From positions 1 to 31,744 of IMG/VR virus record IMGVR_UViG_3300037042_004100: a stretch of DNA of 31,744 nt; one strand, 5' to 3'. The position numbers were made by a program, and so were the translations under genes. The notes under the pieces are model-generated. The model saw only the letters and a list, made by a program, of their open reading frames with translations. It did no database searches and was not told the origin of the DNA. How positions within the stretch are numbered: the stretch's first letter is position 1; each line of letters opens with the position of its first letter. Positions 12,334 through 28,577 of this stretch are shown one piece after another. The DNA comes from a virus.

Positions 12334-13964
12334 ACCTGCCCCGCGAGATACGACTGCACCTGTCCCTGTGTGGCTGGCGGCAGAGACGACAGGGCCAGCC
12401 CACCGGCCTGGACCTTGGCGGCAAGCGATGCGACCTCACGGGCAGAGAGAGCCCCGGGCGGGCTGGTCATCACCTGGGACACCATGCGGACGATCTCGCG
12501 GCCATCTGGCAAACCCAGACGCTTGGCCTCCAGGAACCCCCGGGCGGTGGCCTCGGCAGGGTTGCCCCGGCTCATCACATCAGCGATGGATTCCCAGCCC
12601 GGGGCGTTGTCGTTTAGCCAGTCCTTGTAGGGCAGGCCCGGAACCGCCTCGGGATTGGCGGGAGCGGTCGGGAGGATCTGGCGAGCGACGGCCCCCGGCT
12701 TCCCTGTAGCGGCAACGTGAACCAGCGTGCAGCGGCAATTGCTTGTAAATGCACCATCGCTCACAACATGCCCGAACGGAGAACGGAAATCGTAAACATG
12801 ACCATCATAATCAAACCGGATGACCTCAACAACCTCATCAAGGATTACCTTGCCGGAGGACTCATTAATGATCTCGCTTACAAATACGGGGTTAGCGCAA
12901 ATGGCGTCCGTAAACGGCTTGTAGAGGCAGGAGTAAAAATGCGGACCAAATCCGAATCGGACCGCATCAAGGCGGGGTGTGTTGACGATATCAACTCCAT
13001 CCTCAGTGATTACGATGCCGGGGAGTCCATTAATTCCATAGCCAATAGGGTATCCATGTCCCGCCCCGCCATCCGGCGATGGCTGATGAAGGCCGGGGCC
13101 AAGATCCGAACCTCTTCTGAGCAAGAGCGAATCAAGTGGGCTTCCATGCCCAAAGATCGTCGGGATGCCCAGGTAGCGGCTGCCCACAATGCTGCGAGGA
13201 TCAAACTCAATGGGCGTCCCCTCACAGCTCAATGTTACCTTGCCGGAGCCAAGGAAAGGGCGGAATCCCGCCGAATGACCCGCTATGAGGCCTCCATCTG
13301 CAACTACCTTCTTTCCCTGGGGCTGGAAGTAATCCCCCAAAAACAGGTAGGCCCCTACAACGTCGATTTTGCCATTGATGGACTCCCCGTCGCCGTGGAA
13401 GTAATGAGGGGAGTTGCGGGCATGCGACACCGGCCCCGCATTCAAAAGCGCACGAAACACTTGCTCGGCGGTGGGTGGGCGGTGGTATTCATCTACCTCA
13501 GCCAAGGAGCCCCCAACGACCTGACGAGGATCGACAAGCACCTTGTCCCCATTGTTGATGCTGCCCGCCGCAATGAGCCCATTGCTGGTAACTGTTGGGT
13601 GATTCGCTGTAACCCGAAGCCTAGCACCGCTCTTTGTGCGGATCTCGACGGCATCCCCTTTATAGAGTGCGCGTGATGCTCCATCAAAGATGCCGGATAT
13701 AGGAGCATCAGGAAGGAAGCACCCGAAGTCCATAGGAGGGATCGGCGCACGGGGATCATCAAGCCGCCAAACGGTACCATGGAGCGCCGCATGAGATGGC
13801 CTCACCCGATCATCCGGCGTCCCAGCGGGATCATGCTCCCCGGGCCCGGTCTGGCACACAAGCTGGACAAATACGGCATCGGCATCAAGAACGCCCTGTG
13901 CCTCGGCCTCTTGCCGGGTCGGGTCGTCAATCGGTAGGCCGGTCAGTGGAGCGGCAATGGGCAT
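12330..13964 (-). CDS. MuF-like minor head protein interrupted by an intein
   Basis: MuF-like proteins sit near the portal and take part in head morphogenesis. The 544-aa precursor is an 81-residue N-extein, a 328-residue intein (residues 82-409) and a 135-residue C-extein, giving a 216-aa spliced protein. Joining the exteins restores the family signature R-P-x-H-A-A-L-x-G-x-V ... D-D-P ... P-P-x-D-F-G-C-R-C. The intein splits it immediately before the CRC motif, whose first Cys is the +1 nucleophile. ATG 13964 is chosen (GGGAAGG upstream); a TTG at 13970 is too near the SD. The C-extein beyond CRC is helical. The upstream gene may supply the helical N-terminal part of the usual MuF domain. 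A nuclease gene lies antisense inside the intein. Confidence 0.85.
   Translation of the reverse strand: MPIAAPLTGLPIDDPTRQEAEAQGVLDADAVFVQLVCQTGPGEHDPAGTPDDRVRPSHAALHGTVWRLDDPRAPIPPMDFGCFLPDAPISGIFDGASRALYKGDAVEIRTKSGARLRVTANHPTVTSNGLIAAGSINNGDKVLVDPRQVVGGSLAEVDEYHRPPTAEQVFRALLNAGPVSHARNSPHYFHGDGESINGKIDVVGAYLFLGDYFQPQGKKVVADGGLIAGHSAGFRPFLGSGKVTLSCEGTPIEFDPRSIVGSRYLGIPTIFGHGSPLDSLLLRRGSDLGPGLHQPSPDGGAGHGYPIGYGINGLPGIVITEDGVDIVNTPRLDAVRFGFGPHFYSCLYKPFTDAICANPVFVSEIINESSGKVILDEVVEVIRFDYDGHVYDFRSPFGHVVSDGAFTSNCRCTLVHVAATGKPGAVARQILPTAPANPEAVPGLPYKDWLNDNAPGWESIADVMSRGNPAEATARGFLEAKRLGLPDGREIVRMVSQVMTSPPGALSAREVASLAAKVQAGGLALSSLPPATQGQVQSYLAGQV
12738..13721 (-). mobile_element. intein in the MuF-like head protein
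   Basis: The intein is 328 residues, from Cys1 (codon 13721-13719) to the final Asn (12740-12738). Block A is CFLPDAPISGIFDGASRALY and block B is RLRVTANHPTVTSNG with the TxxH histidine. Block F is VIRFDYDGHVYDFRSPFGH and block G is AFTSN before +1 Cys. The penultimate residue is Ser instead of the common His. There is no in-frame endonuclease domain. Instead the nuclease is on the other strand (12798-13676) and covers all but the first 15 and last 20 codons. Confidence 0.88.
12798..13676 (+). CDS. homing endonuclease, Vsr/DUF559-like, antisense within the MuF intein
   Basis: The 292-aa product has two tandem helix-turn-helix modules, residues about 15-45 (INDLAYKYGVSANGVRKRLVEAG) and 68-100 (INSIANRVSMSRPAIRRWLMKAG). 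A linker and a nuclease domain of the Vsr / DUF559 type follow: TRYE (E164), YNVDF (D190), AVEV (E201), then basic residues and GWAVVFIYL. This E-D-E core belongs to the PD-(D/E)XK fold seen in EDxHD homing nucleases. Starts at 12717 (GTG) and 12768 (ATG) share the frame; 12798 is chosen because it has GGAA upstream and lies well inside the intein. Its codons lie exactly in register with the antisense intein codons, so absence of TTA, CTA and TCA codons keeps the intein open. It would cut intein-free MuF genes and spread the intein. Confidence 0.8.
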   Translation: MTIIIKPDDLNNLIKDYLAGGLINDLAYKYGVSANGVRKRLVEAGVKMRTKSESDRIKAGCVDDINSILSDYDAGESINSIANRVSMSRPAIRRWLMKAGAKIRTSSEQERIKWASMPKDRRDAQVAAAHNAARIKLNGRPLTAQCYLAGAKERAESRRMTRYEASICNYLLSLGLEVIPQKQVGPYNVDFAIDGLPVAVEVMRGVAGMRHRPRIQKRTKHLLGGGWAVVFIYLSQGAPNDLTRIDKHLVPIVDAARRNEPIAGNCWVIRCNPKPSTALCADLDGIPFIECA

Positions 13965-13966
13965 GT

Positions 13967-14584
13967 TCAAGCCTTCCCGGTTAGAGCCTGACCAACGGCG
14001 CGCACAGCGGCAGCGACCCCGGCAAGGTGGCCCTGTTCAACGGCAAAGGACAGGCGACCAGCGGAGGCATCAGCGACCCGGCCAAGCTCGGACGGGATCG
14101 ACCGTGGATCAACGGTGGTCGAGAGCGGAAGGGCAAGGGCCTGCTGAATGCCATCGCCCAAGGCGCGGGCGAGGTCCATGGCCCACTCCTCAACCGTGAA
14201 CCCCAGAACCGGAAGGCCGGATAGGTCGTCCCGGTCCTGCTCAGTCACGGTTGCAGACAGGCCAAGCGGAACCGCCCGGGTCTGGCCAGCCACAGCGAAG
14301 CCCGACACGATGGCGTCCAGGACAAGCCGGGAGGCGTCAGCGTAGGCGCGGGCTTGGTCGGCCTGGATAGCCTGCTGGACCTTGGGGTCTTGCCGGATCT
14401 TGCGGAGGTCCCGGCCCGGCTCACCCAAGGCAGAGCCACCATCGGCGGCGGCAATGGCCCCGATGATGGCTTGAGACGCGGCAATGGTCGCCTGGGATAC
14501 GTGCCCCATACCGATTGCCTTAGCCTCAGCCATGAGCCGTTGGCGGTCTTCCTCCTCTTTGGCGATGGCCTGGGAGAGATTCAT
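13967..14584 (-). CDS. head morphogenesis-associated helical protein
   Basis: The 205-aa product is almost wholly helical and Ala-rich (SQAIAKEEEDRQRLMAEAKA, VQQAIQADQARAYADASRLV, WAMDLARALGDGIQQALALP, VEQGHLAGVAAAVRAVGQAL). ATG 14584 overlaps the upstream TGA as ATGA; the frame to 14641 is shadow. It is followed within three bases by the MuF-like gene. Because MuF proteins normally have a helical N-terminal half of about this size, this gene may encode that half as a separate chain. That is an inference from order and composition only. Confidence 0.55.
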   Translation of the reverse strand: MNLSQAIAKEEEDRQRLMAEAKAIGMGHVSQATIAASQAIIGAIAAADGGSALGEPGRDLRKIRQDPKVQQAIQADQARAYADASRLVLDAIVSGFAVAGQTRAVPLGLSATVTEQDRDDLSGLPVLGFTVEEWAMDLARALGDGIQQALALPLSTTVDPRSIPSELGRVADASAGRLSFAVEQGHLAGVAAAVRAVGQALTGKA

Positions 14585-15276
14585 CCCCGGGGCAATTCCA
14601 CGGAGCCAGAGATACCGGACAGCGGCGTGGGGCTGGACCAATAGCGGGCCCGGCGAACCTCGTCAGGGATGACGCTGCCACTCTGAAGGCCCTCAAGGTA
14701 GTCATCAAAGGTCGTGCGGTACATCTCGACCAGTCTCCATTCCTGGTTGCCCTCGGAATAGAGGATTTCGCCAAGCTGGCCAGCCGCCCCGATGCACACC
14801 ATGCGGGCGATTGACGGGACGGAGTAGGCCGCGTTTTCGGTGTCCACCTCAGCGGACACATACACAACCTCCTCATCGGCCAGCCCGTTAACGACCGTGA
14901 CAACCCCGGTCGAAAGCGCGGTCGAAAACTGGGAGGCGGCGATGTCCGGGAGCCCGTTGCTAGTGATCCCGACCGATGGCCTGACTTCAAATTGCAGCCG
15001 GTCGCCACGCCAGACACGCACAGACCCGCCGATCAGCGGTTTCATGGTGGTTGCTGGGAGGACGGTCGTGCCAGCAACGCCACGGCGGACGACTTGCTCC
15101 AGGTCGATTTCCTGGATCTGCTGGAATGTCCGTTCTGACATGCTGGCTACAATGGCATCCACGGCGCGGTCCATGGCCGTTTCGATAACGGTCTGTCCAC
15201 CGTAATCGGCGGCGACCGTGTCGTGATACAGGGACACAACCCCGCCGAAGACGGCCCCAAATCGGTTCATGCTCAC
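14581..15276 (-). CDS. putative head-tail connector / minor structural protein (231 aa)
   Basis: Not firmly recognised. The product has an N-terminal helical part (ETAMDRAVDAIVASMSERTF), a central beta part (GSVRVWRGDRLQFEVRPS) and a C-terminal helical part (EWRLVEMYRTTFDDYLEGLQ). Start is GTG 15276, in a GTGA overlap with the upstream gene and with GAGG seven bases before it. It sits among head-completion and tail-joining genes, which suggests a connector or stopper role. Confidence 0.55.
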   Translation of the reverse strand: MSMNRFGAVFGGVVSLYHDTVAADYGGQTVIETAMDRAVDAIVASMSERTFQQIQEIDLEQVVRRGVAGTTVLPATTMKPLIGGSVRVWRGDRLQFEVRPSVGITSNGLPDIAASQFSTALSTGVVTVVNGLADEEVVYVSAEVDTENAAYSVPSIARMVCIGAAGQLGEILYSEGNQEWRLVEMYRTTFDDYLEGLQSGSVIPDEVRRARYWSSPTPLSGISGSVELPRG

Positions 15277-15749
15277 GGTAAAACCTCGTAGGTGTCGCGG
15301 TGGAAGTTCTGCGAGACGGTTAGGGTGGCCTCACGCACATGCCCCCAGGGGCCCTGCTCAAGACCAGATACCCGGTCAGAGCCAAGGACGGCAAGCTGCG
15401 AGCCAAGATTGCGGACGGCAACAAGACAGGCGGACAAAATGTTCTCGCTCAAGTCCTCGGCCTCCTCAATGACACTCCCTCCAACGTGGCAGCGGATTGA
15501 CAAGGTCTGCTCAAGGTCGCCATCCTGCTCAGACGTAACCGGGGTGAAGGTCTGGCCAATCACGGCGACCTCAAGGAACGGCAGCCGCCCCCGATTGCGA
15601 CCGCCGATGAAACCGCCATTTCCACCAAAGACATGAGGGGCGGCGGGGTCGGCCCACACGCCAGCGGAAAGGCCAGCAGCGGCGGCAATCGTGGCCCCTT
15701 GGCAGGCGGTCACGGCGGCATCACGGAGGACGGATCCGGCGGTGGTCAT
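15273..15749 (-). CDS. paralogue 2 of a tandem pair, putative tail-completion protein
   Basis: The 158-aa protein is a clear paralogue of its upstream neighbour. Shared blocks are ACxxATIAAAAGLS.xxW (N-terminal helix), DPAAPHVF, GGRNRGRLPFLEVAV, EQDGDL.QTLSIRCHVGG and WGHVREATLTV.Q. The mix of a first helix and then strands in a ~150-aa protein near the tail tube gene resembles tail-terminator proteins of the gpU type. ATG 15749 is three bases after the upstream TAA. Confidence 0.65.
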   Translation of the reverse strand: MTTAGSVLRDAAVTACQGATIAAAAGLSAGVWADPAAPHVFGGNGGFIGGRNRGRLPFLEVAVIGQTFTPVTSEQDGDLEQTLSIRCHVGGSVIEEAEDLSENILSACLVAVRNLGSQLAVLGSDRVSGLEQGPWGHVREATLTVSQNFHRDTYEVLP

Positions 15750-15752
15750 GGC

Positions 15753-16298
15753 TTAACGATAGTAGGTCTGCACGACGGTTAAAGCGGCCTCACGCACATG
15801 CCCCCAGTGCCCTTGTCGAAGCTCGCCCATACGGCACGGGCCAAGCTCTGGAAGCTGCGTAGGGCTGGCCCGAGTTTCCGCTAGGCAGGCGGAAAGGATG
15901 CGGAGCGTCTGGGAGTCGGACTCTAGCAAGCCGCCCCCGGCGTGGCAGCGGATCACCAGCGTCTGTGTCAGGTCGCCACCCTGCTCAGTGACGACCGGGC
16001 TTCCTGAGTCGGACACTACCGCAACCTCGACAAACGGCAATCGTCCCCGGTTACGGCCACCGATCCAGCCCCGGGCGATCCCGGAGAATACGTGAGGGGC
16101 GGCGGCGTCCGTCCAGGCCGCTGGCGAGAATCCGGCGGCAGTGGCCACCGTGGCAGAGTTGCACGCAGCCACCGCCGCAACACGGAGACGGCGCATCCCA
16201 AAAATCGAATGGATGACCCCTATGGACCCGGCAAGGTGGATTGAGCCGAAGTGAATCGGCCCGAAGTGAACCCCGCCGAAATGAACGTCAGCGGTCAC
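15753..16298 (-). CDS. paralogue 1 of a tandem pair, with an HFG-repeat N-terminus
   Basis: The 181-aa protein is homologous to the next gene across residues about 35-178. Its extra N-terminus is a pentad repeat, VHFGG-VHFGP-IHFGS-IHLAG, which is not in the paralogue and looks like a short pentapeptide-type or beta tether. Start is GTG 16298, in a GTGA overlap with the large structural gene; Met35 (16196) would give a protein without the repeat, the same length as the paralogue. Likely roles: tail terminator or head-tail joining. Gene duplication followed by divergence is the simplest reading. Confidence 0.65.
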   Translation of the reverse strand: MTADVHFGGVHFGPIHFGSIHLAGSIGVIHSIFGMRRLRVAAVAACNSATVATAAGFSPAAWTDAAAPHVFSGIARGWIGGRNRGRLPFVEVAVVSDSGSPVVTEQGGDLTQTLVIRCHAGGGLLESDSQTLRILSACLAETRASPTQLPELGPCRMGELRQGHWGHVREAALTVVQTYYR

Positions 16299-19200
16299 GA
16301 CCCACTCACGACAACGCTTGTCCGGTTGGTCCCGTCATTGTTGGAGGTCACACGACCGGCCCCGGTGGGATCTTTGAAGACCTCAGCCGGGGAACCACGG
16401 CCAGCGGTGGCCCCCACGAGAACGGCGTACATGTCCCGGTGTTCCGCCCCGTAGTTCCGCCCATTCTGGGAGACGACAGCCCACGGGCTGGGGGCGTTGG
16501 CCGTAACAAGCCGGATCCCGCTCTCAAAGTAAATCGGGCCGGTGGAGGTCGCCGCTACCGGGATTGCTCCATCATCACGGTAGAGCCAGCCCCCGGTTAT
16601 CTTGAGCCCCGCCGTCTTTACGTTGTCTAGGTAGATATCGGCAATGTCGTTGTGGATCGTATAGGCCAGAGCGTTGTCCGCTGTAACGGCATTGAAGAAT
16701 ACCTCAATGCCGATGGCAAGTGACTCGTTGTATTTTGCCCAAGCATAAAAACGCTGGAGGCTCGTGGTGTTGTCCGGGTCGTTGATGTCGATTTGAATGT
16801 TCGGGTAATCGGGTGTGAACTCGGTTACAGCAGAGCCATCGATCCCATTTCCAACGTAAATCGAATCCACAACCTGAGAGCCGATCACGCCAAACCCGGA
16901 AATGCTGGCGACCGCGAATCCTTCAAACGGCAGATACCCAGCCCGAGCAATCCGCACCCGCACGGTGTCACCATCGCTGATGCCGGTGCCGGTGTAGTAC
17001 TGATAGATTAACGAGGTCCCAGCCTGTGATTCGTTGTAAATCTCGGTTGAGGTCGTCACGTTGTAAATCTGCACCCGGCTCCCAGCCACAAAGGCGGGCA
17101 TCGTCCCCGCCCCGGTGTACTGGTAGGGATAGACCTCTTGCTGGCTCGTGGCGTCCGTAACTGTGTCGATCCGGATTCCGGTCAGCGCATTGGTGGGGTC
17201 CGCCGTGACCACCGTGACCCGGATCCGCAACTTGAAGCCAGTGGTCGGGGATATGGCACCGGCCCCCGATAGATTCGTTGCGTCCAGGGTTAACCAAGTG
17301 CCGTTCCACCCGCTGCCGAAATCGTACTGGAACTCAAAGGACATATTTGCAGTCAGCGTTCCAGACAGGACGGGGGCGATGTTCGCAAGCGACGTGTGCC
17401 CAATGGCGAAGTAAGGCATCGTTGCGACAATCTGGTCGCCAACGGTCGGCATGGAAAGCTGGCCGCCAGCGGTGAACGCCGGAACACCCGAGGTGACGGC
17501 AAGCTGGTCCGCGCTATCGGCGGTCGGCTCGTTCATGTACAGGCGAACAAGGCCCGTCGTGGGCGAATTAAAAGCGTCCGTCCAGTGAGAGCCGTATACC
17601 GACTGAGCGCCAGTAGACGACGGGGTCCCGTACATGCCCCGGCACACGGAATCCACTTGGCGCACGATGTAGTCGCTAGCGGCACCGCCCCACACGTTGT
17701 CACAGACAAGGCGGGTCGTGGCGTTGTTTGAGTTAAAGACGTTAAGTCGTGCGGTGGTCGTGTAGATCCGGTTAAGCTGGCAATCACTGCAAGTAGCGAG
17801 ATTGACGGCGTATCCGCAAGCATTTGCGCTGCCCATATTCAATGGGGCTGCGATGGTTCCGATGTCGCGGACCTTTATGCCAAGGCATCCGGTCTGAATG
17901 AAAACCAATTGGAAATAAGGATGGACGTTAGACAGGCCACTTAGTAGCGAAATATTTTTTATTTCACAATCAACGGACTGTGTTTGTATAACAATCGCAA
18001 TAAGCGGATTTGTCGAGGTAGTTGCCCCGTTCATTTTGTCTGCGTAAGTGTGATCATTTACACTACAGCGCAGCATCGTGTTGATTAATACCGTGCCGCC
18101 GATAAACGTGTTCCCGTCCATGGTTGAATCAGTCCAGCGAGACACCTCAATCATGCGGTTGTCGCCAAACGCACGCTCTATGGACCCCTCACCCCCAAAC
18201 ATGGTGAAAACGTTATCATTGAACGTAACCCCCGCCCCGTCAGACGATGTCATGATGCGGTCGGCCACGGCGCGGTTATTGATTCTAGTTAGACAGTTCC
18301 TTTGGATGGACGATCCATCGACAAGAATATTCAGGTTGAGAATAGACGCTGTTTGTGGGCAGTCACCGCCCCCGCCGTTGTCGTCGAAAATTAGCGGCAG
18401 CGTGGTGTTGCCCGATTGAATGCCCGCGTTTCCAGGGACACCGCAATTCCGCATCTCCCACTGGTAGGCCCCGCTGGTGTTGTGATACCAGAGGCAGTTC
18501 ACCTTGTCGAAAACCACAATGCCGCCACCGGCTGCGGTGATTTCCCATTTGCTGGTTGCTGAGATAAACCAGTTTTGGTTTCCAGTCCAGGACGCGGAGT
18601 CAGCGGTTGACATCCACGCATTTGGAACCCTGACGCGAAGGCCAGCGGCAGGCTTGAACCCGCAAGCGTTGGTCGCACGGCGGGCAATGGTGATCGTCCC
18701 AAGGGGCGATCGGAAGGTGAAAGCGCCTGACTGAGTGGCGTTCTTTGACAGGGTAACGGACGTATTTGGGACAATCGCGGTGATTACCGCGCCGTCTGCA
18801 ACGTGGCCAAGGGCGTTCGCCGGGGAACCTACTGGCATGCCAACAAGGAAGCCTGCCGTGTCAGTCATCGTCACGATGCCATTTCCGGACGTGCTGGTGC
18901 CGGTGACTTCTTTCCATTGGCCGAACATTTTTCCCCGGATGTCCGTTGGAACCATTTGCACGGAATTCCCCCAGCGGAACCCGGGATTTACCCACTTTTC
19001 GTAGACCCCAGAGCCGACGCCAGTTTCGACCCAAATGATTGGGACGTGATCCAAAACCGGAATAGCAAAGGTCTGGTCATCCGTCCCGTCAGTGATGCCA
19101 AGCTCGAACCAGTCGCCCGTGGCATTCACGGACCCCAGGCGGACGGCGGCGCACGATGAGCCTGCCTCTCCAACGAAATGCAACCACCCGCGCTGCCCAC

Positions 19201-19666
19201 CGGTCGCGCTGTTGGCGGTGATCGTTGCCCCGCCTGGGAGCGTGATGACCTCGTTATCCTGGAATGTGCCGACCTTGGAGCGAAACTTGATCCATCCCGT
19301 TGCGGGGATGGCGGCAGCGGCAGCTACTGGCGCGCCAGGGATTGAGCCCCAGATACCCAGGAACTCACCGGTTGCCCCCGAGGTTGCCCCGGTGCAGTTC
19401 TGGACGCCAGCGGTACCCAAGGCCGGGACGTTGCCAGAGGGGGCATCGTAAGCCATCCACCAAACGCGGGTAGAATCCCACAACACGTCCCCGCCAAGGG
19501 TCGCACTGGGGTTGATGTTCCCAAAGACGGCGGCTTGCTGGCCCCACCGTGTATCGCTGTCGCACGTAAGGGAGAACCCCGCCAAGGTGATGTTTTCACC
19601 GTTAGCGAGGCCCAGGATGCTTGCGCTGTCGAAGTTGCTATCAGCCGTCAGCGTTTGATCTGCCAC
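16295..19666 (-). CDS. large beta-helix-like structural protein / fibre (1123 aa)
   Basis: The product is Gly/Thr/Asn-rich with evenly spaced short strands, the pattern of right-handed beta-helix or fibre proteins. The opening (TLTADSNFDSASILGLANGE, then TCDSDTRWGQQAAVFGNI and TLGGDVLWDSTRVWW) matches a class of large phage structural proteins. The middle (LNILVDGSSIQRNCLTRINN, IMTSSDGAGVTFNDNVFTMF, DGNTFIGGTVLINTMLRCSV) has beta-helix rungs. The C-terminal third holds Ig-like and carboxypeptidase-like beta domains (GAGTMPAFVAGSRVQIYNVT). Start is GTG 19666 with AGGGGT upstream. It lies within the connector region, not after the tape measure, so a head fibre or an adhesin displayed on the neck is possible as well as a tail fibre. 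Confidence 0.65.
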   Translation of the reverse strand: MADQTLTADSNFDSASILGLANGENITLAGFSLTCDSDTRWGQQAAVFGNINPSATLGGDVLWDSTRVWWMAYDAPSGNVPALGTAGVQNCTGATSGATGEFLGIWGSIPGAPVAAAAAIPATGWIKFRSKVGTFQDNEVITLPGGATITANSATGGQRGWLHFVGEAGSSCAAVRLGSVNATGDWFELGITDGTDDQTFAIPVLDHVPIIWVETGVGSGVYEKWVNPGFRWGNSVQMVPTDIRGKMFGQWKEVTGTSTSGNGIVTMTDTAGFLVGMPVGSPANALGHVADGAVITAIVPNTSVTLSKNATQSGAFTFRSPLGTITIARRATNACGFKPAAGLRVRVPNAWMSTADSASWTGNQNWFISATSKWEITAAGGGIVVFDKVNCLWYHNTSGAYQWEMRNCGVPGNAGIQSGNTTLPLIFDDNGGGGDCPQTASILNLNILVDGSSIQRNCLTRINNRAVADRIMTSSDGAGVTFNDNVFTMFGGEGSIERAFGDNRMIEVSRWTDSTMDGNTFIGGTVLINTMLRCSVNDHTYADKMNGATTSTNPLIAIVIQTQSVDCEIKNISLLSGLSNVHPYFQLVFIQTGCLGIKVRDIGTIAAPLNMGSANACGYAVNLATCSDCQLNRIYTTTARLNVFNSNNATTRLVCDNVWGGAASDYIVRQVDSVCRGMYGTPSSTGAQSVYGSHWTDAFNSPTTGLVRLYMNEPTADSADQLAVTSGVPAFTAGGQLSMPTVGDQIVATMPYFAIGHTSLANIAPVLSGTLTANMSFEFQYDFGSGWNGTWLTLDATNLSGAGAISPTTGFKLRIRVTVVTADPTNALTGIRIDTVTDATSQQEVYPYQYTGAGTMPAFVAGSRVQIYNVTTSTEIYNESQAGTSLIYQYYTGTGISDGDTVRVRIARAGYLPFEGFAVASISGFGVIGSQVVDSIYVGNGIDGSAVTEFTPDYPNIQIDINDPDNTTSLQRFYAWAKYNESLAIGIEVFFNAVTADNALAYTIHNDIADIYLDNVKTAGLKITGGWLYRDDGAIPVAATSTGPIYFESGIRLVTANAPSPWAVVSQNGRNYGAEHRDMYAVLVGATAGRGSPAEVFKDPTGAGRVTSNNDGTNRTSVVVSGS

Positions 19667-19678
19667 GGGGCACCCCTA

Positions 19679-19999: not shown

Positions 20000-20028
20000 G
20001 GCGGGATCGTCCTTATTGATTGCGTGCG

Positions 20029-20984: not shown

Positions 20985-20985
20985 G

Positions 20986-21144
20986 TTACCCGGGTCCGCC
21001 TGCTTCGGTTTCTTGGGCAGACTCGGCAATCTTTTGTCGGGCCGCCTGAAGGATCTGCATCAAGGCTGCATGTCCATCTCGGGGGATGAGCAGATTGCGC
21101 GAATGCTGGTCAATGAAGTCGGTGATTTCGGTGGCGGTGATCAT
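20986..21144 (-). CDS. small hypothetical protein (52 aa)
   Basis: A 52-aa helical protein (TATEITDFIDQHSRNLLI, GHAALMQILQAARQKIAE). ATG 21144 has GAGG nine bases upstream and lies ten bases after the previous stop; the open frame extending to 21444 is antisense/offset shadow of its neighbour. No family recognised. It is tightly packed in the virion operon, one base from the next gene. Confidence 0.6.
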   Translation of the reverse strand: MITATEITDFIDQHSRNLLIPRDGHAALMQILQAARQKIAESAQETEAGGPG

Positions 21145-21154
21145 GGCGGGATCC

Positions 21155-21547
21155 TCACTCAGACGGGGGCGGTGGCAAGGTGGTAGCCTCGCGCACATAC
21201 ACGGCGTTGATGATGGCAAAGCACAGGGCAATGGGCCATTGCTGACCGCCGATTTCCACGGTCTGGCCGATGAGGTCCGAGGCATAGAGCGGGGGGACCG
21301 TGGGACCAATTCCACGAGGGATGACCTCACCGCTGGCAAGGGTGATAGACTTCTCTTGTGGGTACTGGACGCGCCAACCACGGGGGTCTGGCTGGGGAAT
21401 AGATTCACCCGGCGGGATAATGTCGGGGAGACGGACAATCTCACAGGCCATGGCCCGCTGTTTTATCGTAGCGTCTCCATCGGAGCCCACGATTGAGGGG
21501 ATTGACTCGTAAAGGCCAATCGCTTCTAGGATAGTCGGGGGGGCCAT
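21155..21547 (-). CDS. hypothetical virion-operon protein (130 aa)
   Basis: Not recognised. The middle part is beta-rich and Pro-rich (VRLPDIIPPGESIPQPDPRG, GQTVEIGGQQWPIALCFAII) and the end is PPPPSE. ATG 21547 is two bases from the upstream stop. Its position after fibre-like genes suggests a small fibre-associated or chaperone protein, but nothing specific is seen. Confidence 0.6.
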   Translation of the reverse strand: MAPPTILEAIGLYESIPSIVGSDGDATIKQRAMACEIVRLPDIIPPGESIPQPDPRGWRVQYPQEKSITLASGEVIPRGIGPTVPPLYASDLIGQTVEIGGQQWPIALCFAIINAVYVREATTLPPPPSE

Positions 21548-21549
21548 GA

Positions 21550-22287
21550 TCAGTCCGCGTAAAATGGGATTTTTCGGATCGTTCCACTAATTGAAATTCT
21601 AAGATACCCAGTTGGGGTGGCCGGGAGAGCCGAAGCTCCGCCCGCTGCGCCGACAGTGGTCTGTGTGCTGGCTGCCGTTGTTCCGTCCCCGATGGCCAAA
21701 ACTCCCGTACCCGCCCTGAATATTGGGAAATCTCCCATCCATATGCCGTTCGCCCTAGTAGTTCCACTGGCGAGTTGCAGGAGGCCGTTGCCTGCGGCGG
21801 GGGTTACGCCGATGCCGAGGTTGCCACTGGTGTCAAACCTCCCAACAGTCGCAGAGCCGATGTTGAACAGCAAATCGGTAGACGCACTGTAAATCACCGT
21901 TCGGGCATCATACGCGCCGCCAAGGATGGACGAAAAGTTGCCCCAGGCGGCGGTCGTGACTCCATTGCCACGCACAAAATACGATGCCCCTCCGTTTGTC
22001 CCTGAGTTGCCACCGTCTGCTGTAACGTTGGTAAGTCCGGTAGTAGCGACGACACCAAAAAAGTGCGATCCATTGGCCCGGAACGCTTGCGCCGCCGTCC
22101 AAGTCTGCGCCAACCCCAGCAACGCCACGGTTCCGGCAGCATCCGGGAAGGTCACGGTCCGCGCCGTGGTCCCCGTCTTGGTCAACGTCAGGTCGCCGGA
22201 AATACCGGTAGTAGCCAGCCCTGCCAGCCCAAATAGCGGGCGACTTGCGGGCGTCAGCGGGTCAGGGAGTGCGACGGGGATGCCCAT
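21550..22287 (-). CDS. fibre-like protein (245 aa)
   Basis: The product is Gly/Thr/Ala-rich with fibre-type repeats (DLTLTKTGTTARTVTFPDAAG, then NLGIGVTPAAGNGLLQLASG). It ends in PTGYLRISISGTIRKIPFYAD, a close match to the short beta-strand C-terminus (G-Y-x-x-I-x-I-x-G-x-x-x-K-I-P-Y-Y) found at the ends of many phage fibres and head-fibre proteins. It starts at ATG 22287 within TGATG of the upstream gene. Lying soon after the capsid gene, it is more likely a head or neck fibre than the main tail fibre. Confidence 0.7.
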   Translation of the reverse strand: MGIPVALPDPLTPASRPLFGLAGLATTGISGDLTLTKTGTTARTVTFPDAAGTVALLGLAQTWTAAQAFRANGSHFFGVVATTGLTNVTADGGNSGTNGGASYFVRGNGVTTAAWGNFSSILGGAYDARTVIYSASTDLLFNIGSATVGRFDTSGNLGIGVTPAAGNGLLQLASGTTRANGIWMGDFPIFRAGTGVLAIGDGTTAASTQTTVGAAGGASALPATPTGYLRISISGTIRKIPFYAD

Positions 22288-23003
22288 CAGACGGCCCCCT
22301 CCCAGCGGGTCAGTGTGATGATGCCCCGCACGATGGCTTCCGTATTGCCAGCGACACCGCCAGCGTCAGCAATCACATCGTAGAAAACATCAACGCTATT
22401 CTGGCCAGCGGTGATTGCCGTATCCATCTGGGAGAAGAAGGCGGCGGTTTCCGGGACCGTGAAGGCCAGCACGCCAAGAGCGGAACCCGTGATCCCGCTG
22501 TTGAGCGTGTAGAAGGCCGAACCGCCGGAATGGGTTGAGTCCCACACAGTGAAACGGTAGTTGCTGTACCCAGAAAGGTCCACCGCCACACCGGCAGCGT
22601 TCTGCACAGTCATGGTAACGGCAGCCCGGCGGCGGGCGTTCATGGTCAGGTTATATTCTGCGCCGATGCGGGCGGCAGAGGAAGCGGACACGGCAGGGGC
22701 GGCTACCAGCGCATATAGGGAGTCGTTGTCCTGCTGCCCAATCTCGGCCAGCCACAAGCCAGACTCAACCACGTAGCCAGAACAAGCGATAAAGGCTTGC
22801 CACCATCCCAGCGTAACGGGCAGGGTAAAGGCGACTTTATACCGCCCGGTCCCGCCGCCGATTCCGGTTACTGCGTAGGTAGGCGCAACCGAGGCCCCGT
22901 CCAGGTAGGTCACGGGGATTATCGATGCGGCAAGGCCGTCAGTCGCTACCCCTGCCGTGGTCCGTACCGTAACGACCGGAGTGAATGTATCGCCTGCCTT
23001 CAT
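22287..23003 (-). CDS. BppU-N-like head/tail fibre adaptor (238 aa)
   Basis: The 238-aa product has two Ig-like beta halves: DTFTPVVTVRTTAGVATDGL...YKVAFTLPVTLGWWQAFI, and a second of the type seen in BppU N-terminal domains (RAAVTMTVQNAAGVAVDLSG, YRFTVWDSTHSGGSA, GVLAFTVPETAAFF, EAIVRGIITLTRWEG). Such domains anchor fibres to capsids or baseplates. It is followed by the fibre-like gene, so anchor plus fibre is a natural pairing. ATG 23003. A terminator lies just before it, so it may be expressed at a lower level than the capsid protein. Confidence 0.65.
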   Translation of the reverse strand: MKAGDTFTPVVTVRTTAGVATDGLAASIIPVTYLDGASVAPTYAVTGIGGGTGRYKVAFTLPVTLGWWQAFIACSGYVVESGLWLAEIGQQDNDSLYALVAAPAVSASSAARIGAEYNLTMNARRRAAVTMTVQNAAGVAVDLSGYSNYRFTVWDSTHSGGSAFYTLNSGITGSALGVLAFTVPETAAFFSQMDTAITAGQNSVDVFYDVIADAGGVAGNTEAIVRGIITLTRWEGAV

Positions 23004-23024
23004 TCGTGCCCCTTACCCTTACAG

Positions 23025-23058
23025 AAAACAAAAACCCACGCCCCGGATGGAGCGTGGG
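23025..23058 (-). terminator. intrinsic terminator downstream of the capsid gene
   Basis: Minus strand CCCACGC (23058-23052) pairs with GCGTGGG (23041-23035) around a 10-base loop, followed by TTTTTGTTTTC. It lies between the capsid stop (23076) and the next start (23003). It would reduce transcription of everything downstream relative to the capsid gene, unless antiterminated. Confidence 0.85.
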
Positions 23059-23075
23059 CCGTTGTTGCGGTCTGA

Positions 23076-24230
23076 TTATCCCAGGACGAGCTTGAGCAGT
23101 TCCGGGCGAACCACGGAGACGCCCCATGCACTGGAAAGCTCGTAGTTATTCAGGCCGTAGCCCTTGTAGGTCGAGAAGCGGCAGCCGATGCCGGTTTCAG
23201 GATCCATAACCTCGATGTGTTCACCAGCATCGCCACCGTCCGGCAGGCGGGGGAGACGGATAGCCAGACCGATGGCTTCACGGTGGAAGGCCAGATTCCG
23301 GCGACCAGCCGACAGGGTGATGGCGTTGTTGTCCGCAATGCCGTTGACCAGACCGCTGGTGAGGGTCAGGGTGCCCGCGCCGCCAGCGTGGGCAGCGGCC
23401 AGAACATAACGGTTTGTCGTGTCAGCGGCGAACGAAATTACCGTGCCCTCAGGAATGGCACCAGTGCCGGTGTCCACGATGATCGAGGTAGCGCCAGCGG
23501 CAGCCGCGCCGTTGACCAGATAGCCGGTACCGGCAATGGTCGCGCCGGTTTTCACGTCGTTACCCCAAACCACATTGAAGCCAGCAAGCTGGCCGATGAT
23601 GCCCTGGCGCAGGAGGTCGCTGGAGCCAGCCTCGCTCACCTTGACCAACTGGCCCAGGTTTCCGAGGTTGGCCTTGGCGGCGGTGTCGATGAAGAGGAAC
23701 CGGTCTTCCGACGGGGCCAGGGAGTCGTTGAGCAGCTTTTCAGCGCCAGTGATCAAGCTGATATCCGAGGCAAACGGAGTGGTTCCAGCAACGCCGAGGG
23801 ACGCACCGGAAGACGGGGTGCTGGTGCTGTAATAACCGGCGGCGTCAACGTGCAGGCCAGCGATGTCGGCATGCACCTCGTTACGCCAAGCGCGCATGGC
23901 CTGAGCCATGCTCAGGGGCATGAACTCGGGGTTCTGCTGCATGCGCAAAAAGTCGTCGCCCGTCATGTGGAACGGGAACTTGCGGTCCTTGGTGATGGTG
24001 ATGTTGGTGCTGGTCACGGTACGGTCAGATGCAACCGTGAAGGTTGCAGCGGGGGTACGGTCGGCACCAGCAACGGCGGGCGCGAAGGGGACCGGGACGG
24101 ACTGGCTCAGTGCGACCTGATCAGCGCGGAAGTCGGTCATGACCATCGAAGGCAGGGCGGCACGTTCGGCCAGAACCCGGCGCATGGAGGCCGTGAGGTT
24201 GGGGATGATGGGGGTGAAAGTATTGGGCAT
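23076..24230 (-). CDS. major capsid protein, P22-coat-like
   Basis: The 384-aa product has the HK97-fold coat pattern of the P22 gp5 type. An N-terminal arm (MPNTFTPIIPNLTASMRRVL) leads to FRADQVALSQSVPVPFAPAV, then the long spine helix (SMAQAMRAWRNEVHADIAGL), an inserted-domain-like region, and the late segment RNLAFHREAIGLAIRLPRLP. The latter is the typical coat motif where the A domain ends. Scaffold and portal genes come right before. ATG 24230 is three bases after the scaffold stop. It forms the icosahedral shell with the help of the scaffold. Confidence 0.85.
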   Translation of the reverse strand: MPNTFTPIIPNLTASMRRVLAERAALPSMVMTDFRADQVALSQSVPVPFAPAVAGADRTPAATFTVASDRTVTSTNITITKDRKFPFHMTGDDFLRMQQNPEFMPLSMAQAMRAWRNEVHADIAGLHVDAAGYYSTSTPSSGASLGVAGTTPFASDISLITGAEKLLNDSLAPSEDRFLFIDTAAKANLGNLGQLVKVSEAGSSDLLRQGIIGQLAGFNVVWGNDVKTGATIAGTGYLVNGAAAAGATSIIVDTGTGAIPEGTVISFAADTTNRYVLAAAHAGGAGTLTLTSGLVNGIADNNAITLSAGRRNLAFHREAIGLAIRLPRLPDGGDAGEHIEVMDPETGIGCRFSTYKGYGLNNYELSSAWGVSVVRPELLKLVLG

Positions 24231-24233
24231 GGT

Positions 24234-24908
24234 TTACTCTGAGATTTTGAGCTTACCGGCGGCGATGTCGCGGGCGGTAGTGGTTGATTGGGCGGGGTCG
24301 CGCATCCGGGTGGTGTACTCGGAGAGGCTGATGGTCTTGACCGTGGCCCCGGTAGCGGGACGGCCAATTCCTGCGCCAGAACCCGGAGCCGTTGAAGCGG
24401 CGCGGAGGTAGGGGCGCTTATCGAGGATTTCAGCCAAGAACGCATCCACGCCCAGGGGCTTTCCCTCAGAATCAAGACGGGGGCGTCCGCCCTCGCCAAT
24501 GACTACGAGGTTTCCCGTTTCCAGGTCGTAGTCGCAAACCGAACCGGTTAGCGAGAGAATATCGTCAGCGGCTTCGGTGATCACGCCGGGAGTCTTCAGA
24601 ATGGCCGACTTGAGAGCGGTCGCCTTGAGGTTGGCCTTGAGCTTGCCGATGGTCTGGCCGTGCTGTTCGGTCGCTTTCTTGAGGGCCGCTTCAAACTCGC
24701 CCTTGCTGGTGAGCTTGGCCACCTCGGCCTCCTGAGCGGCGGCAGCGGCGGCGGCCTTGGCCTCGGCTTCCTTGGCGCTGAGGGCGGAAACCTGCTCAGA
24801 CAGGGTGCGGAGGCGTTCCTTCTGGTTCTGACGGGCGGCAATTACCTTGTCGGCAATCTCGTCATCAAGTTCCAGCTCGACGCCTTCAAAGTCAACTTTC
24901 TTCGGCAT
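24234..24908 (-). CDS. capsid scaffolding protein
   Basis: The 224-aa protein is acidic at the start (VDFEGVELELDDEIADKVIA). A long Ala/Lys/Glu coiled coil spans residues 25-110 (RLRTLSEQVSALSAKEAEAK, AAAAAAAQEAEVAKLTSKG). A more ordered part follows (VITEAADDILSLTG, VDAFLAEILDKRPYL), with a Gly/Ala-rich tail. This layout and the place between portal and coat gene are typical of scaffolds that direct procapsid assembly and are then removed. ATG 24908. No protease motif is seen, so removal by exit instead of cleavage is likely. Confidence 0.8.
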   Translation of the reverse strand: MPKKVDFEGVELELDDEIADKVIAARQNQKERLRTLSEQVSALSAKEAEAKAAAAAAAQEAEVAKLTSKGEFEAALKKATEQHGQTIGKLKANLKATALKSAILKTPGVITEAADDILSLTGSVCDYDLETGNLVVIGEGGRPRLDSEGKPLGVDAFLAEILDKRPYLRAASTAPGSGAGIGRPATGATVKTISLSEYTTRMRDPAQSTTTARDIAAGKLKISE

Positions 24909-24965
24909 GGTCTATCGCTTTCCCGCCATCCGGCGGAAATTGGCAGGCTTCCGCCCGCCGGGTGG

Positions 24966-26366
24966 TTAGGTCAGGGGGCCGCGCGGTGGCTCGCCAATGG
25001 CCTTGATTTGCTCGGCAAGGATCAAGTCCCGTTCGCTGCCGGGCTCAATCTGGAGGGCATGGCGGGCCAGTTTCTCCCAAGCGGCAGCAACCAGGACCGG
25101 TGGGGCTCCGTTGAGTTTGAGTGAACCGGCAGCCTCCACCGCGCTGGACAGGTCCAGGGGGGCGAACTCGCGGGCGTAGTTCACGGGGTCGGCGGGGGCG
25201 AAGTTGAAGCCAGCGGCGGCGCGCTCCATGACTCGCCGTTCAAATCCCTCGGCCACTTCAGCAAGGCGCGCAAGGCGTGCTTCGATTTCGTTAAAGGCGA
25301 AGGCGCGGGCAACCCCGCTCTCAGGCTGGCCAACCTGGGTTGCGGAACCGGCGACAAGACCGGCGGATCGGTATAGCTCATTGACCTCATAGGCCAATTG
25401 TTCCCGGAGGCTCCCGGCCTGTGAAACGTCAGCGGAAAGTTTGCTTACCCCCGGCGTGGCCCCGCCCTCCTGAGGAGCAAGGCAAAGCGCCATCCCGCTC
25501 CCAATAGTCGCCTGCCCAATCGTATCCTTTGAGACGTTCGTAAAAACGTGCGTCGTGAAGGTGACGTTATGCAACTCCTCCAAGAGGAGCGTTTCCAGCA
25601 CAGCGATGCGTCGTTGACCTTCGCACCATGGGCCAGCAACCGGGGCATCATCGCTGCCAAGTTCCATCCTGATCAGCGGGCAGCCGCCGTAGGTGTGGGC
25701 AACCGGCTCCTCAACCTCCTGCACACGCCAAGAGGCCGGGTTATCCTCCTCCCCGGTAAGGTTGACGCGCTGGGTAGATTCCTCGTTGACCATCCACAAG
25801 AACGGAGCCCCGGAACGGCCCGCCATCACGATGACGGCCTCGACCACGTCATCTTCCCAGCAGCGCTCCCAGATGACCTGTTGCGGCTCAATCTCGCGGA
25901 CAATCGGGCGTGCCCCGGCTGCCTGCTCTTGGGCGGCAGTGCCGTAGACCCCGTCGGCGGTGTTGTCGATGAGCCCGTAAGCCACGCCCAAGACCATTGC
26001 GGTTGTTTCGGTGGATCGGATGACGTTGTGGATCGACTTCCCCCGACCGTTGGCATCGGCCAAGAGCAAGGACGCCATTCCCGAGGCGGTACGCTGGGGA
26101 GACTGACGGAAGACGTGGTCAACGTACCGATCAACAAGGTGACGGACCAGAGGGCGCACCATGGCCGTTTGCTTGCGCCGGGAATACCGCTTGTCCGATT
26201 CGTTCTCGTGCTTGGGCAGGATATCCGCGCCGGTCAGGTCCCCAGCATCGAAATACTCTAGGCCGGAAGCCTCGTAGGACTCCTCCCAAAACTTCCGGGG
26301 CTGGGATAGCCGCTTCCACTCTGCGGAGAGGGGGACTGGATCACCGGGGGCGAGAGTAGGGAACAC
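24966..26366 (-). CDS. portal protein
   Basis: The portal is the dodecameric ring through which DNA enters and leaves. The 466-aa product has a helix-rich start (WEESYEASGLEYFDAGDLTG, YSRRKQTAMVRPLVRHLVDR), a wing/clip beta region (VIVMAGRSGAPFLWMVNEES), and long C-terminal helices (ESGVARAFAFNEIEARLARL). The layout resembles portals of the DUF4055 kind. It lies between large terminase and scaffold. The start is uncertain: the frame is open back to the TAG of the terminase gene, with no ATG and only GTG 26366 or a CTG nearby, and no good SD. Confidence 0.8.
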   Translation of the reverse strand: MFPTLAPGDPVPLSAEWKRLSQPRKFWEESYEASGLEYFDAGDLTGADILPKHENESDKRYSRRKQTAMVRPLVRHLVDRYVDHVFRQSPQRTASGMASLLLADANGRGKSIHNVIRSTETTAMVLGVAYGLIDNTADGVYGTAAQEQAAGARPIVREIEPQQVIWERCWEDDVVEAVIVMAGRSGAPFLWMVNEESTQRVNLTGEEDNPASWRVQEVEEPVAHTYGGCPLIRMELGSDDAPVAGPWCEGQRRIAVLETLLLEELHNVTFTTHVFTNVSKDTIGQATIGSGMALCLAPQEGGATPGVSKLSADVSQAGSLREQLAYEVNELYRSAGLVAGSATQVGQPESGVARAFAFNEIEARLARLAEVAEGFERRVMERAAAGFNFAPADPVNYAREFAPLDLSSAVEAAGSLKLNGAPPVLVAAAWEKLARHALQIEPGSERDLILAEQIKAIGEPPRGPLT

Positions 26367-26393
26367 GCCCGCCAGCGTCTTGGGCGGAGCATT

Positions 26394-26417
26394 GGCGCGA
26401 ACCGGAGCGGTTTCCTA
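26394..26417 (-). repeat. intergenic 3' element, copy C
   Basis: Minus strand TAGGAAACCGCTCCGGTTCG starts at the TAG of the large-terminase gene. It matches copies A and B at most positions and keeps a hairpin (AACCG/CGGTT), with the changes concentrated in the loop. Confidence 0.5.
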
Positions 26418-28577
26418 GAGCCCCGGCAGGGCGATGGATCCATTCGTGACCGGCGGTCTGGTAACGTCCCAGGCGAGGTATCCCAAGGCGTCCAGGATAT
26501 GCCCACGATCCCCCTTATCGCCCGGGTCGTATCCGCCCGAGGTCAGAAGCTTGGTCCGCTCTAGCTCTTGGATAATCCGGGTGCAGCGGGGATGCACGAC
26601 CAACCGTCGGCGACCGTCGGCGGCACAACATAGGCGGGACAGGTTGGCGATACGGGCGGCAACCGGGGGGTTTGCCCCGGACGCGGATCCGGTGTACTTC
26701 CACCCCAGAGATTGCGCGGTCTGCTGCATCACCTTGAACTCACTGTCCCCGGTCGTGCTGCGGGCCTTGCTGCTCTTGTCCGGGTGGAGGTGGACAACGG
26801 CCCGACCCCATCCCTTGGCGTGGGCCTCGTATATTGCCGCGTCCACTGTGGTCCCGCCGGTCAGGAATAGTTCATCAAGGATCCGCACTTCACCGTCCAC
26901 GTATTGGCCAAGACACCAGCCCATGGGATCGACGTTGTAGTCGGCCCCCAGGTGCAGGGGCAGGCCCGGGGCATCGTTGAACTCTCGCACGTTGGCAAGG
27001 GCCAGGAAGCCGGGGTGAGCTCGGGATCCGCCAACGTCAACGGCCAGCCCTTCCAAGTACTGCTTCGCCACGTCAGCGGAGAAGGATGCCATCAGGGAGG
27101 CAACATAGCCCGGCGGAAGGGCCGGGTTCTTGGTGGTCAGTCCCCGGTAATATCGCCGGTCTGGCGTGGGATGGTCGATGAAGTCCCGTTGGACCCAGGT
27201 GTCTAGGCCCTCGGGAGTGGTCGTGCAGAGGAGGTGCAGACGGTGCCATGGGCTATCGGAGAAGCCACGCACACGGGACCGGATCTGCGTGGGGGCATCG
27301 CGCAAAGGGTCTTCGCTGGTCTTGATGCGCGCCGCTTCATCGACCCACCCATGGGCGACCTCAAAACCAGCGAAGCGGCGGGGATCCTCTGCCGATAGAA
27401 GCCAGATAGGATAGTCCCCCACGATGATACAGGGAACGTCAGAGCGGGATTGATCCTTGTATGGCCACCCCCATTCCGTGAGCGCCTTCATGAGGGCCGG
27501 GATCACAAAGCGGTGAAGGTCGCCATAGGTCGGGGCAATCGCCATCCCGGCGCATTGGTTGCGCTGGTGCAGCAAGAGCAATTTCCGAGCACCTGCCCAA
27601 CTCTTGCCGCTGTTGTGGTGCCATAGGCCGTTGGCTAGGTAATGGCCGAAGCCCGGAACGTTGATGTCGTAAAAAACGGAATTCGGAACGTGTTCTACCG
27701 TTGCAATCCTATCCCACCCAACTATATTAGAGCCCATGAAAGGGCTATCCCATGCCTCGCCCCCCTGGATCCCGTAACCCAAAAGCACGCCGTTGGATAA
27801 TGGAGCCTCGAATCCGTGAGCTTCATGCACTTGGCTGGACAACTGGCCAGATTGGGAGAGATGTGCAGATGCGCGGGGAGGATGTTCGACGCCTTCTTCG
27901 TGATCTCGATCTCCCGTCAAATATGCCGCATCATAGGGGAGAAAGCAACCCTGCGTGGAAGGGCGGGGTGATAATCGATAAGCACGGCTACAAATTGATT
28001 TGGAAGCCTGCCCACCCTCATGCATCTGCTTCAGGTCGAGTCCGTGAACATCGGCTTGTGATGGAGCAAGTCCTGGCGCGTTACCTTCTCCCGACTGAGG
28101 TTGTTGACCACATAAACGGGGATACTGGTGATAATAGGCCGGAAAATCTCCGGGTATTTGCGTCAAATGCTGAACACCTAAGGAAGACGCTATCTGGGAA
28201 GAAGCATAACATGTCAGCGGAGAACAGAGCAAAGCTGTCCCGGCTAGTGCGTCTTCGGAACGAATCCAGGCGGTCCCAGAATAAAACCGATGGTCAGGCG
28301 TGACCGTAACGGTTCGACCTGATTCCATGGTGAACCTTAGCATCTTGGAAACCGGGCCGACCACTGGGGGAGGGCATTGGACAACCCCCCTAGTGGTGAC
28401 GCAATAAAACGGAACAGCGGCGGCCCATAGATCGTCTATGCGCCGCTCAGTTCCATCCCCCATAGCGATGAGGGTGTCCCCAGCTAGACACCCAAGGCCG
28501 CCAACGTACAACGATTCCCCTGGTTTCATATCCCACAGAAAATCATGTTGGGCCTTTTGATTGCCGGATACCTGCAC
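26415..28577 (-). CDS. terL: large terminase subunit interrupted by an intein in the Walker A loop
   Basis: The large terminase pumps DNA into the procapsid (ATPase) and cuts concatemers (RNase H-like nuclease). The 720-aa precursor is a 29-residue N-extein ending GGLG, a 293-residue intein, and a 398-residue C-extein beginning SGKSWAGARK. Splicing rebuilds Walker A as G-G-L-G-S-G-K-S; the unspliced protein cannot bind ATP normally. Walker B is WVDEAA, the coupling motif LLCTTTPEG. The nuclease part shows GADYNVDPM, then RILDELFL and VHLHPDKSSKAR with acidic residues in the expected order. Spliced length 427 aa is usual for the family. Start is GTG 28577, the only start before an in-frame stop. 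An HNH endonuclease gene is antisense inside the intein. Confidence 0.92.
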   Translation of the reverse strand: MQVSGNQKAQHDFLWDMKPGESLYVGGLGCLAGDTLIAMGDGTERRIDDLWAAAVPFYCVTTRGVVQCPPPVVGPVSKMLRFTMESGRTVTVTPDHRFYSGTAWIRSEDALAGTALLCSPLTCYASSQIASSLGVQHLTQIPGDFPAYYHQYPRLCGQQPQSGEGNAPGLAPSQADVHGLDLKQMHEGGQASKSICSRAYRLSPRPSTQGCFLPYDAAYLTGDRDHEEGVEHPPRASAHLSQSGQLSSQVHEAHGFEAPLSNGVLLGYGIQGGEAWDSPFMGSNIVGWDRIATVEHVPNSVFYDINVPGFGHYLANGLWHHNSGKSWAGARKLLLLHQRNQCAGMAIAPTYGDLHRFVIPALMKALTEWGWPYKDQSRSDVPCIIVGDYPIWLLSAEDPRRFAGFEVAHGWVDEAARIKTSEDPLRDAPTQIRSRVRGFSDSPWHRLHLLCTTTPEGLDTWVQRDFIDHPTPDRRYYRGLTTKNPALPPGYVASLMASFSADVAKQYLEGLAVDVGGSRAHPGFLALANVREFNDAPGLPLHLGADYNVDPMGWCLGQYVDGEVRILDELFLTGGTTVDAAIYEAHAKGWGRAVVHLHPDKSSKARSTTGDSEFKVMQQTAQSLGWKYTGSASGANPPVAARIANLSRLCCAADGRRRLVVHPRCTRIIQELERTKLLTSGGYDPGDKGDRGHILDALGYLAWDVTRPPVTNGSIALPGL
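27701..27728 (+). promoter_or_regulatory. candidate promoter for the antisense HNH gene
   Basis: TTGCAA (27701-27706), 16 bases, TATATT (27723-27728) on the plus strand, 24 bases before the HNH start. An inverted repeat AGCCC-N5-GGGCT lies between it and the ATG and contains the SD-like AAGGG, so it could damp translation. Confidence 0.5.
27752..28303 (+). CDS. HNH homing endonuclease, antisense within the terL intein
   Basis: The 183-aa product has an N-terminal helix-turn-helix (about residues 20-50: IRELHALGWTTGQIGRDVQM then RGEDVRRLLRDL) and a beta-hairpin (GVIIDKHGYKLIW). The HNH core of the HNH_3 kind is REHRLVMEQVLAR with VVDHINGD (His120), DNRPENL (Asn128-Asn132) and NAEHL. The C-terminal basic segment (SAENRAKLSRLVRLRNES) resembles the DNA-binding NUMOD3 type. 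ATG 27752 has AAGGG about nine bases upstream. It lies wholly inside the terL intein on the opposite strand. It would cut intein-free terminase genes and copy the intein by repair. Confidence 0.88.
   Translation: MPRPPGSRNPKARRWIMEPRIRELHALGWTTGQIGRDVQMRGEDVRRLLRDLDLPSNMPHHRGESNPAWKGGVIIDKHGYKLIWKPAHPHASASGRVREHRLVMEQVLARYLLPTEVVDHINGDTGDNRPENLRVFASNAEHLRKTLSGKKHNMSAENRAKLSRLVRLRNESRRSQNKTDGQA

Follow-up and report, generated by a model that had tools for sequence, protein, structure and literature searches.

What are the two long open reading frames that face the inteins of a phage from the opposite strand, and do they belong to the inteins? The question is raised by a 31.7-kb virus contig (the window, the whole 31,744 nucleotides of IMG/VR record IMGVR_UViG_3300037042_004100), in which the head genes lie on the minus strand. 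Two host genes in the window carry one intein each, and each intein has one nuclease ORF on the plus strand. The original prediction had placed the two inteins and their antisense nuclease ORFs correctly, and the positions that bounded it, 12738 and 28490, are the exact outer ends of the inteins. Our analysis makes it highly probable that each element is an intein accompanied by its mobility nuclease, the latter encoded as a separate gene on the complementary strand.

The first host gene (12330-13970, minus strand) encodes a minor head protein of the MuF/SPP1-gp7 type (Phage_Mu_F, E=1.2e-6; phageSPP1_gp7, 2.8e-8), to which the MuF relative at locus L093 is 43% identical. Its intein of 328 residues (intein 1; 12738-13721, minus strand), whose junctions were read from the sequence, extends from C84 to N411 and is followed by Cys (PPMDFG/C84FLPDAP ... 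GHVYDF ... TSN411/CRC), with Ser, not His, preceding the last Asn. Cys1, block B, block F and a C-terminal Asn followed by Cys or Ser can be read in the sequences of both inteins. The Intein_splicing match of intein 1 (3.9e-4) lies under the curated cut-off. In the alignment of its family (A5), C1, T38, N40, H41, P42, H308 and N328 with the following Cys are invariant or nearly so, and the A5 profile matches solved inteins, 2jmz and 2lqm among others (hmmsearch). Inteins also occupy the top Foldseek ranks for the predicted fold (best E 4.8e-3), the AlphaFold model having HINT ends with pLDDT above 90 and residues 131-275 mostly below 50.

The ORF on the other strand (nuclease 1; 12798-13676, plus strand, 292 aa) combines helix-turn-helix (HTH) and Vsr/PD-(D/E)XK-like nuclease regions. 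It matches HTH_58 (1.2e-7) and, weakly, MTES_1575/REase (1.4e-3), the MTES_1575 score of 19.1 bits falling short of the cut-off of 38.2 for a Vsr/DUF559-like profile. D190 is invariant in the family and E164 and E201 nearly so; Foldseek retrieves 3hrl (probability 0.91) and 1vsr (0.89), both weakly (E about 0.25), and the AlphaFold model (mean pLDDT 88) shows helical HTH modules and an alpha/beta core that holds D190 and E201. These weak profile and fold matches and the conserved acidic residues are consistent with a predicted core of the Vsr/DUF559-like kind.

From the coordinates, the two frames are codon-aligned, sense position 1 facing antisense position 3, and nuclease 1 spans residues 16-308 of the 328 of intein 1, block B included. 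The C-terminus of the nuclease overlaps block B (RLRVTANHP, 13596-13622, minus strand), and in block F (GHVYDF, 12786-12803, minus strand) the His codon, CAT, reads as the start ATG of the nuclease on the other strand. At 13356-13406 the same DNA is read as HYFHGDGESINGKIDVV in the intein, on the minus strand, and as YNVDFAIDGLPVAVEV in the catalytic core of the nuclease, on the plus strand; the DFHGD motif of the intein in this segment is under selection of its own across family 1, that is, the relatives of this element. A mini-intein with a nuclease on the other strand had been proposed, and the strand assignment holds, but the two parts are not separable: far from being confined to the linker, nuclease 1 runs through the splicing domain, and in family 1 the nuclease overlaps nearly all of it.

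The second host gene (26415-28577, minus strand) encodes the large terminase subunit (PHROG_2, 5e-25) and is interrupted within its Walker A P-loop by an intein of 293 residues (intein 2; 27612-28490, minus strand), running from C30 to N322 and followed by Ser (GGLG/C30LAGDT ... WHHN322/SGKS). It matches Intein_splicing (1.3e-6), under the curated cut-off, and intein_Nterm (1.2e-6), above it. A terminase with 62% identity, on contig L082/G001, has the exact empty site GGLG/SGKS; this site and the intein-free MuF genes in the group of phage Snoke show that removal of the intein leaves an uninterrupted host protein. The antisense ORF (27752-28303, plus strand, 183 aa) encodes an HNH nuclease with the motifs EHRLVME and VVDHINGDTGDNRPENL (HNH_3, 2.5e-9; PHROG HNH, 2e-23), the score for HNH_3 (PF13392) being 37.0 bits, above the Pfam cut-off of 24.8. 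Here antisense position 1 faces sense position 1, as judged from the coordinates. As predicted, the two nucleases belong to unrelated families, HNH and Vsr/PD-(D/E)XK-like, and lie in different antisense phases. On L082/G001 the terminase is free of an intein, yet the MuF intein is present with a 40%-identical antisense nuclease; one element occurring without the other, the two must come and go separately. Elsewhere in the window, a protein encoded at 2684-3589 (minus strand) is akin to PHROG 1366 and to Sak4-like ssDNA annealing proteins.

Both elements have many relatives. A tblastn search with nuclease 1 matched 124 phage records and, among the matches listed, the nuclease lies mostly beneath a gene for a head, minor capsid or hypothetical protein on the opposite strand. 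In the IMG/VR and GTDB-genome collections, the opposite-strand ORF is open throughout, in one fixed phase, for 112 of 114 relatives, L160 and L176 being the exceptions; in IMG/VR, single-protein scans with the window proteins did not find family 1 relatives and a 17-member alignment was too diverse for a pattern scan, the relatives being obtained with closer sub-alignments. The nuclease is antisense within an intein-bearing MuF gene at 20 of the 21 loci read in detail. All 20, a count that takes in the window and one IMG/VR contig, share the codon-aligned phase at GC contents of 0.42-0.71, in phages of Gammaproteobacteria and Actinobacteria (Haemophilus, Vibrio, Idiomarinaceae, Salmonella, Escherichia, Klebsiella, Pantoea, Pseudomonas, Gordonia and Mycobacterium). 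The overlap is almost complete; in Salmonella phages, for instance, the nuclease spans residues 2-252 of the 272 in the intein. At most family 1 loci the nuclease starts at block F, where the His of HVYNL has the codon CAT (or CAC), which reads ATG (or GTG) on the other strand, and where the N-L-Q/E codons after this His complement a Shine-Dalgarno sequence of the GAGG type. Two relatives are free-standing, at locus L160 (2932-3756) and in Acinetobacter phage BUCT629 (L106, 1606-2499), where the nuclease gene lies next to a MuF gene without an intein, at the 3' end of that gene; the frames opposite these two contain 12 and 17 stops. Such a position near MuF is possibly an ancestral or a collaborative-homing state, and the nuclease may have been first established near its target and later taken in by the intein.

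Among the 80 nearest HNH relatives in IMG/VR, 61 are antisense within an opposite ORF of 374-1255 aa, and 60 of these 61 share the phase of the window. Intein_splicing is matched by 39 of the 52 opposite ORFs scanned, a set that includes those of the window and of one Pectobacterium phage, and most match terminase domains; the junction, where found, is usually HHN/[S/T/C]GK[S/T]. The sole HNH in the other, codon-aligned phase (L073, 118-1239, minus strand) faces an ORF with no Pfam match. A P-loop junction with an antisense HNH also occurs in a clamp-loader gene, DNA polymerase III delta'/AAA ATPase (L054, 3009-4856, minus strand), and a terminase of 1255 aa (L016, 1163-4927, minus strand) has an antisense-HNH intein and a downstream in-frame match to LAGLIDADG_3, this gene possibly containing two inteins of different kinds. 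The HNH relatives of Jack, Vibrio 1.189 and BRkr, considered as antisense cases, were rejected as ordinary annotated genes.

The arrangement is conserved, and its fixation within each family (112/114 and 60/61 in one phase) agrees with the independent origins that had been argued from the window; from these comparisons, each of the two families probably arose on its own. That a single phage holds two cases stands as well, although they are nothing special to that phage, each intein being a member of a large family. The expectation that annotation overlooks such genes was borne out, since nearly all the records checked lack an annotation for the antisense gene; for Snoke, only a large intein is annotated.

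The main alternative to be weighed against genuine genes is that the antisense ORFs are fortuitous, a by-product of GC-rich DNA, their conservation merely mirroring that of the intein. An ORF of 341 aa opposite the major capsid gene (23217-24242, plus strand), used as a control, is longer than both nuclease ORFs, and another antisense ORF of 237 aa (25548-26261) is likewise without homologues; profile searches found none for the ORFs that face the major capsid and portal genes. As the 341-aa control has no profile match, ORF length alone is meaningless in this window. The codon-aligned phase moreover favours open antisense frames at high GC, and the chance of an open frame is 0.012 for intein 1 of the window, weak evidence alone, and 0.31 for L093. 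In AT-rich members of family 1, however, this chance falls below 1e-8 (down to 6e-9), and for the terminase inteins 51 of 51 sense frames are open against 0.76 expected under synonymous resampling, the frame opposite the window HNH being open in 0 of 2000 resamplings. HNH relatives outside such ORFs face 1-8 stops, and the free-standing relatives of nuclease 1 show the same nuclease without an open opposite frame. The substitution pattern is opposite to that of the exteins: in the middle of the MuF intein, changes silent only in the nuclease are 2.8 times those silent only in the intein (p=4e-7; four close pairs), whereas the same ratio is 0.18 in the exteins (p=4e-52; the four close pairs), and in the overlapped splicing segments of the four MuF pairs the bias is not significant. 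For four terminase pairs, variability summed by sense codon position is 88/177/93 over the HNH gene and 115/57/549 in the exteins; position 2, the most variable over the HNH gene, is the wobble position of the nuclease. At block F, 41 of 47 distinct loci have CAT for His (extein usage predicts 18.5) and 39 of 47 have CTC for Leu (13.7 predicted); none of 200,000 simulations reached the count for either codon, which indicates that translation of the antisense gene has been selected for. Across 48 nucleases, a codon-by-codon scan found strong synonymous constraint over the HINT domain, at the block B codons (z up to 12) and at the VAVEV codons, which spell DFHGD in the opposite direction (z up to 9), with little over most of the HTH region. 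We had considered DFHGD...EIV a mere shadow of the nuclease core YN.DFA..VAVEV, a view that was dropped because the sense motif is itself strongly selected; the synonymous-codon test thus replaces the mirror image by dual coding. With nuclease profiles, a high-confidence predicted fold and the start-codon and Shine-Dalgarno bias also against it, a fortuitous origin is highly improbable, and the claim that the ORFs exceed chance in GC-rich sequence is upheld by profiles, family conservation and codon statistics. Codon-position statistics, synonymous bias, the AlphaFold models and the free-standing relatives establish the antisense frames as real genes; both frames code and are under selection.

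Granting genuine genes, the nucleases could be mostly relics, formerly functional and retained since the sense frame must stay open. Damaged copies do occur: a stop at codon 35 in L131 and a shortened HNH in L045, decaying nucleases whose sense frame is intact, and a frameshift in L176 that breaks both frames. Not every member can therefore be active. General decay is nevertheless very unlikely, given the 2.8-fold preference for nuclease-silent changes where the intein is unconstrained, the invariant or nearly invariant catalytic residues and the selected Shine-Dalgarno and ATG codons. Some group I introns carry antisense endonuclease genes, which lends an initial appeal to the idea that the insert is such an intron and not an intein; the frame open across the insert, Cys1, blocks B and F, the terminal Asn with Cys/Ser/Thr, the HINT fold and the matches to solved inteins leave it next to no chance of being right. 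A non-homing role for genuine nucleases, such as exclusion by cutting the DNA of co-infecting phages or HTH-based regulation, would suit the HTH domains that make up about half of nuclease 1 and the related HNH genes found outside inteins, and exclusion by phage HNH enzymes has a precedent in work that PMC7468147 cites. This role is unlikely, since the gene moves with the intein, free-standing copies adjoin intein-less MuF genes, and presence or absence and allele replacement take place at fixed sites.

We return to an intein with its mobility nuclease in antisense, for which the distribution among close relatives is indirect evidence of homing. The element is mobile: between the sam (Salmonella) and Snoke (Escherichia) loci the overlapped intein DNA differs by 4.5% and the exteins by 30.5%, and between LSPA1 and Snoke by 2.5% and 13%, respectively, while the intein is missing from Escherichia phages whose MuF genes are 88-94% identical to that of Snoke. 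The Gordonia phages Sedona (L089) and Fosterous (L099) have exteins 97% identical and inteins only 34% identical, two alleles at one site, both with antisense nucleases; in KMB36 and Sejanus the intein lies at other MuF sites. Presence and absence, together with recent transfer between phage genera, support homing, and we infer that the nucleases are expressed and active, recognize a target site and drive this process.

In the model we propose, the sense strand would be translated as part of the host gene, from whose product the HINT domain would excise itself, most of the peptide between the HINT halves being a disordered side product of the gene on the other strand. The nuclease would come from the antisense strand, which has a ribosome-binding site and start codon of its own; the Vsr-like enzyme most likely cuts intein-free MuF genes, and the HNH enzyme the intein-free terminase P-loop, repair of the cut allele then copying the intein in. 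In family 1, block F doubles as the Shine-Dalgarno sequence and ATG of the nuclease, and the N-terminal HINT half shares codons with its catalytic core. Expression of the nuclease at another time and level than the host protein, as had been proposed, is conceivable. Promoter scans found nothing convincing in the window, where matches are at chance level (the promoter-like TTGCAA-16-TATATT at 27701-27728, plus strand, 24 nt upstream of the HNH ATG, is 1 found for 1.0 expected), nor a convincingly placed match in LSPA1 (4 against 1.1 expected). An advantage of the antisense arrangement is plausible. On balance we favour the broader proposal that these elements form a widespread and so far undescribed class of phage inteins, whose homing gene lies wholly in antisense and is codon-locked to the splicing domain, with block F serving as ribosome-binding site and start and with codons shared by a catalytic strand and an intein motif, so that each partner constrains the evolution and loss of the other.

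In our literature search no account of inteins with antisense nucleases came up, although a 2025 preprint on actinobacteriophage inteins may overlap. That preprint, by Gosselin, Arsenault and Gogarten, reportedly deals with inteins of 'non-canonical architecture', and Gorbalenya is said to have treated 'Non-canonical inteins' in 1998. Antisense coding would add a third solution to the two, in-frame and split-gene, by which inteins carry a mobility nuclease. It involves two unrelated nuclease families, of which family 1 alone accounts for at least 120 public phage records, nearly all unannotated where checked, and offers a clear natural example of dual coding in antisense, in which evidence at the codon level points to selection on both strands. 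Phage 'mini-inteins with long linkers' may persist since they are not nuclease-less, which can now be tested. Pipelines that forbid antisense nested genes systematically miss such nucleases, and sense-frame profile families contain segments shaped by the antisense gene.

Compared with canonical homing inteins, in which a LAGLIDADG or HNH nuclease is in frame, the present elements share the HINT domain, a fixed site in a conserved motif, sporadic distribution and the linkage of nuclease and intein; they differ in that the canonical nuclease is within the spliced-out polypeptide, whereas in our elements it has its own gene on the opposite strand. Split inteins ('fractured genes') have a gene for an EDxHD/Vsr-like endonuclease between their halves. 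They thus resemble our case in a nuclease of Vsr-like fold encoded apart from the splicing domain, but there the nuclease sits between the parts of a split host gene, whereas our inteins are continuous and have the nuclease in antisense. The inteins in MuF or head proteins of Salmonella and E. coli phages (Snoke, PMC6776784; vKMB36, PMC11162368) are members of family 1, described in the available parts of those reports as inteins only, with no mention there of an antisense nuclease. The nearest published case we found is the ShiLan domain (PMC11855218, 2025), a hidden HNH in a mycobacteriophage DNA methylase, which its authors regard as neither intein nor intron and for which they detected no Shine-Dalgarno sequence; for overlapping frames in actinobacteriophages, that paper cites the Gosselin/Arsenault/Gogarten 2025 preprint (bioRxiv 10.1101/2025.01.02.630785) and Gorbalenya 1998. 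The ShiLan HNH is akin to that of intein 2 (P0004; 45% over residues 63-136; tblastn, JN020143), and both kinds of element are mobile, with an HNH read in another frame of an insertion across which the host frame stays open. The window elements nevertheless fall outside a ShiLan-type definition, the ShiLan HNH being on the strand of its host gene and lacking a splicing domain, while here the nucleases are antisense within true inteins, with splicing domains and a Shine-Dalgarno sequence present.
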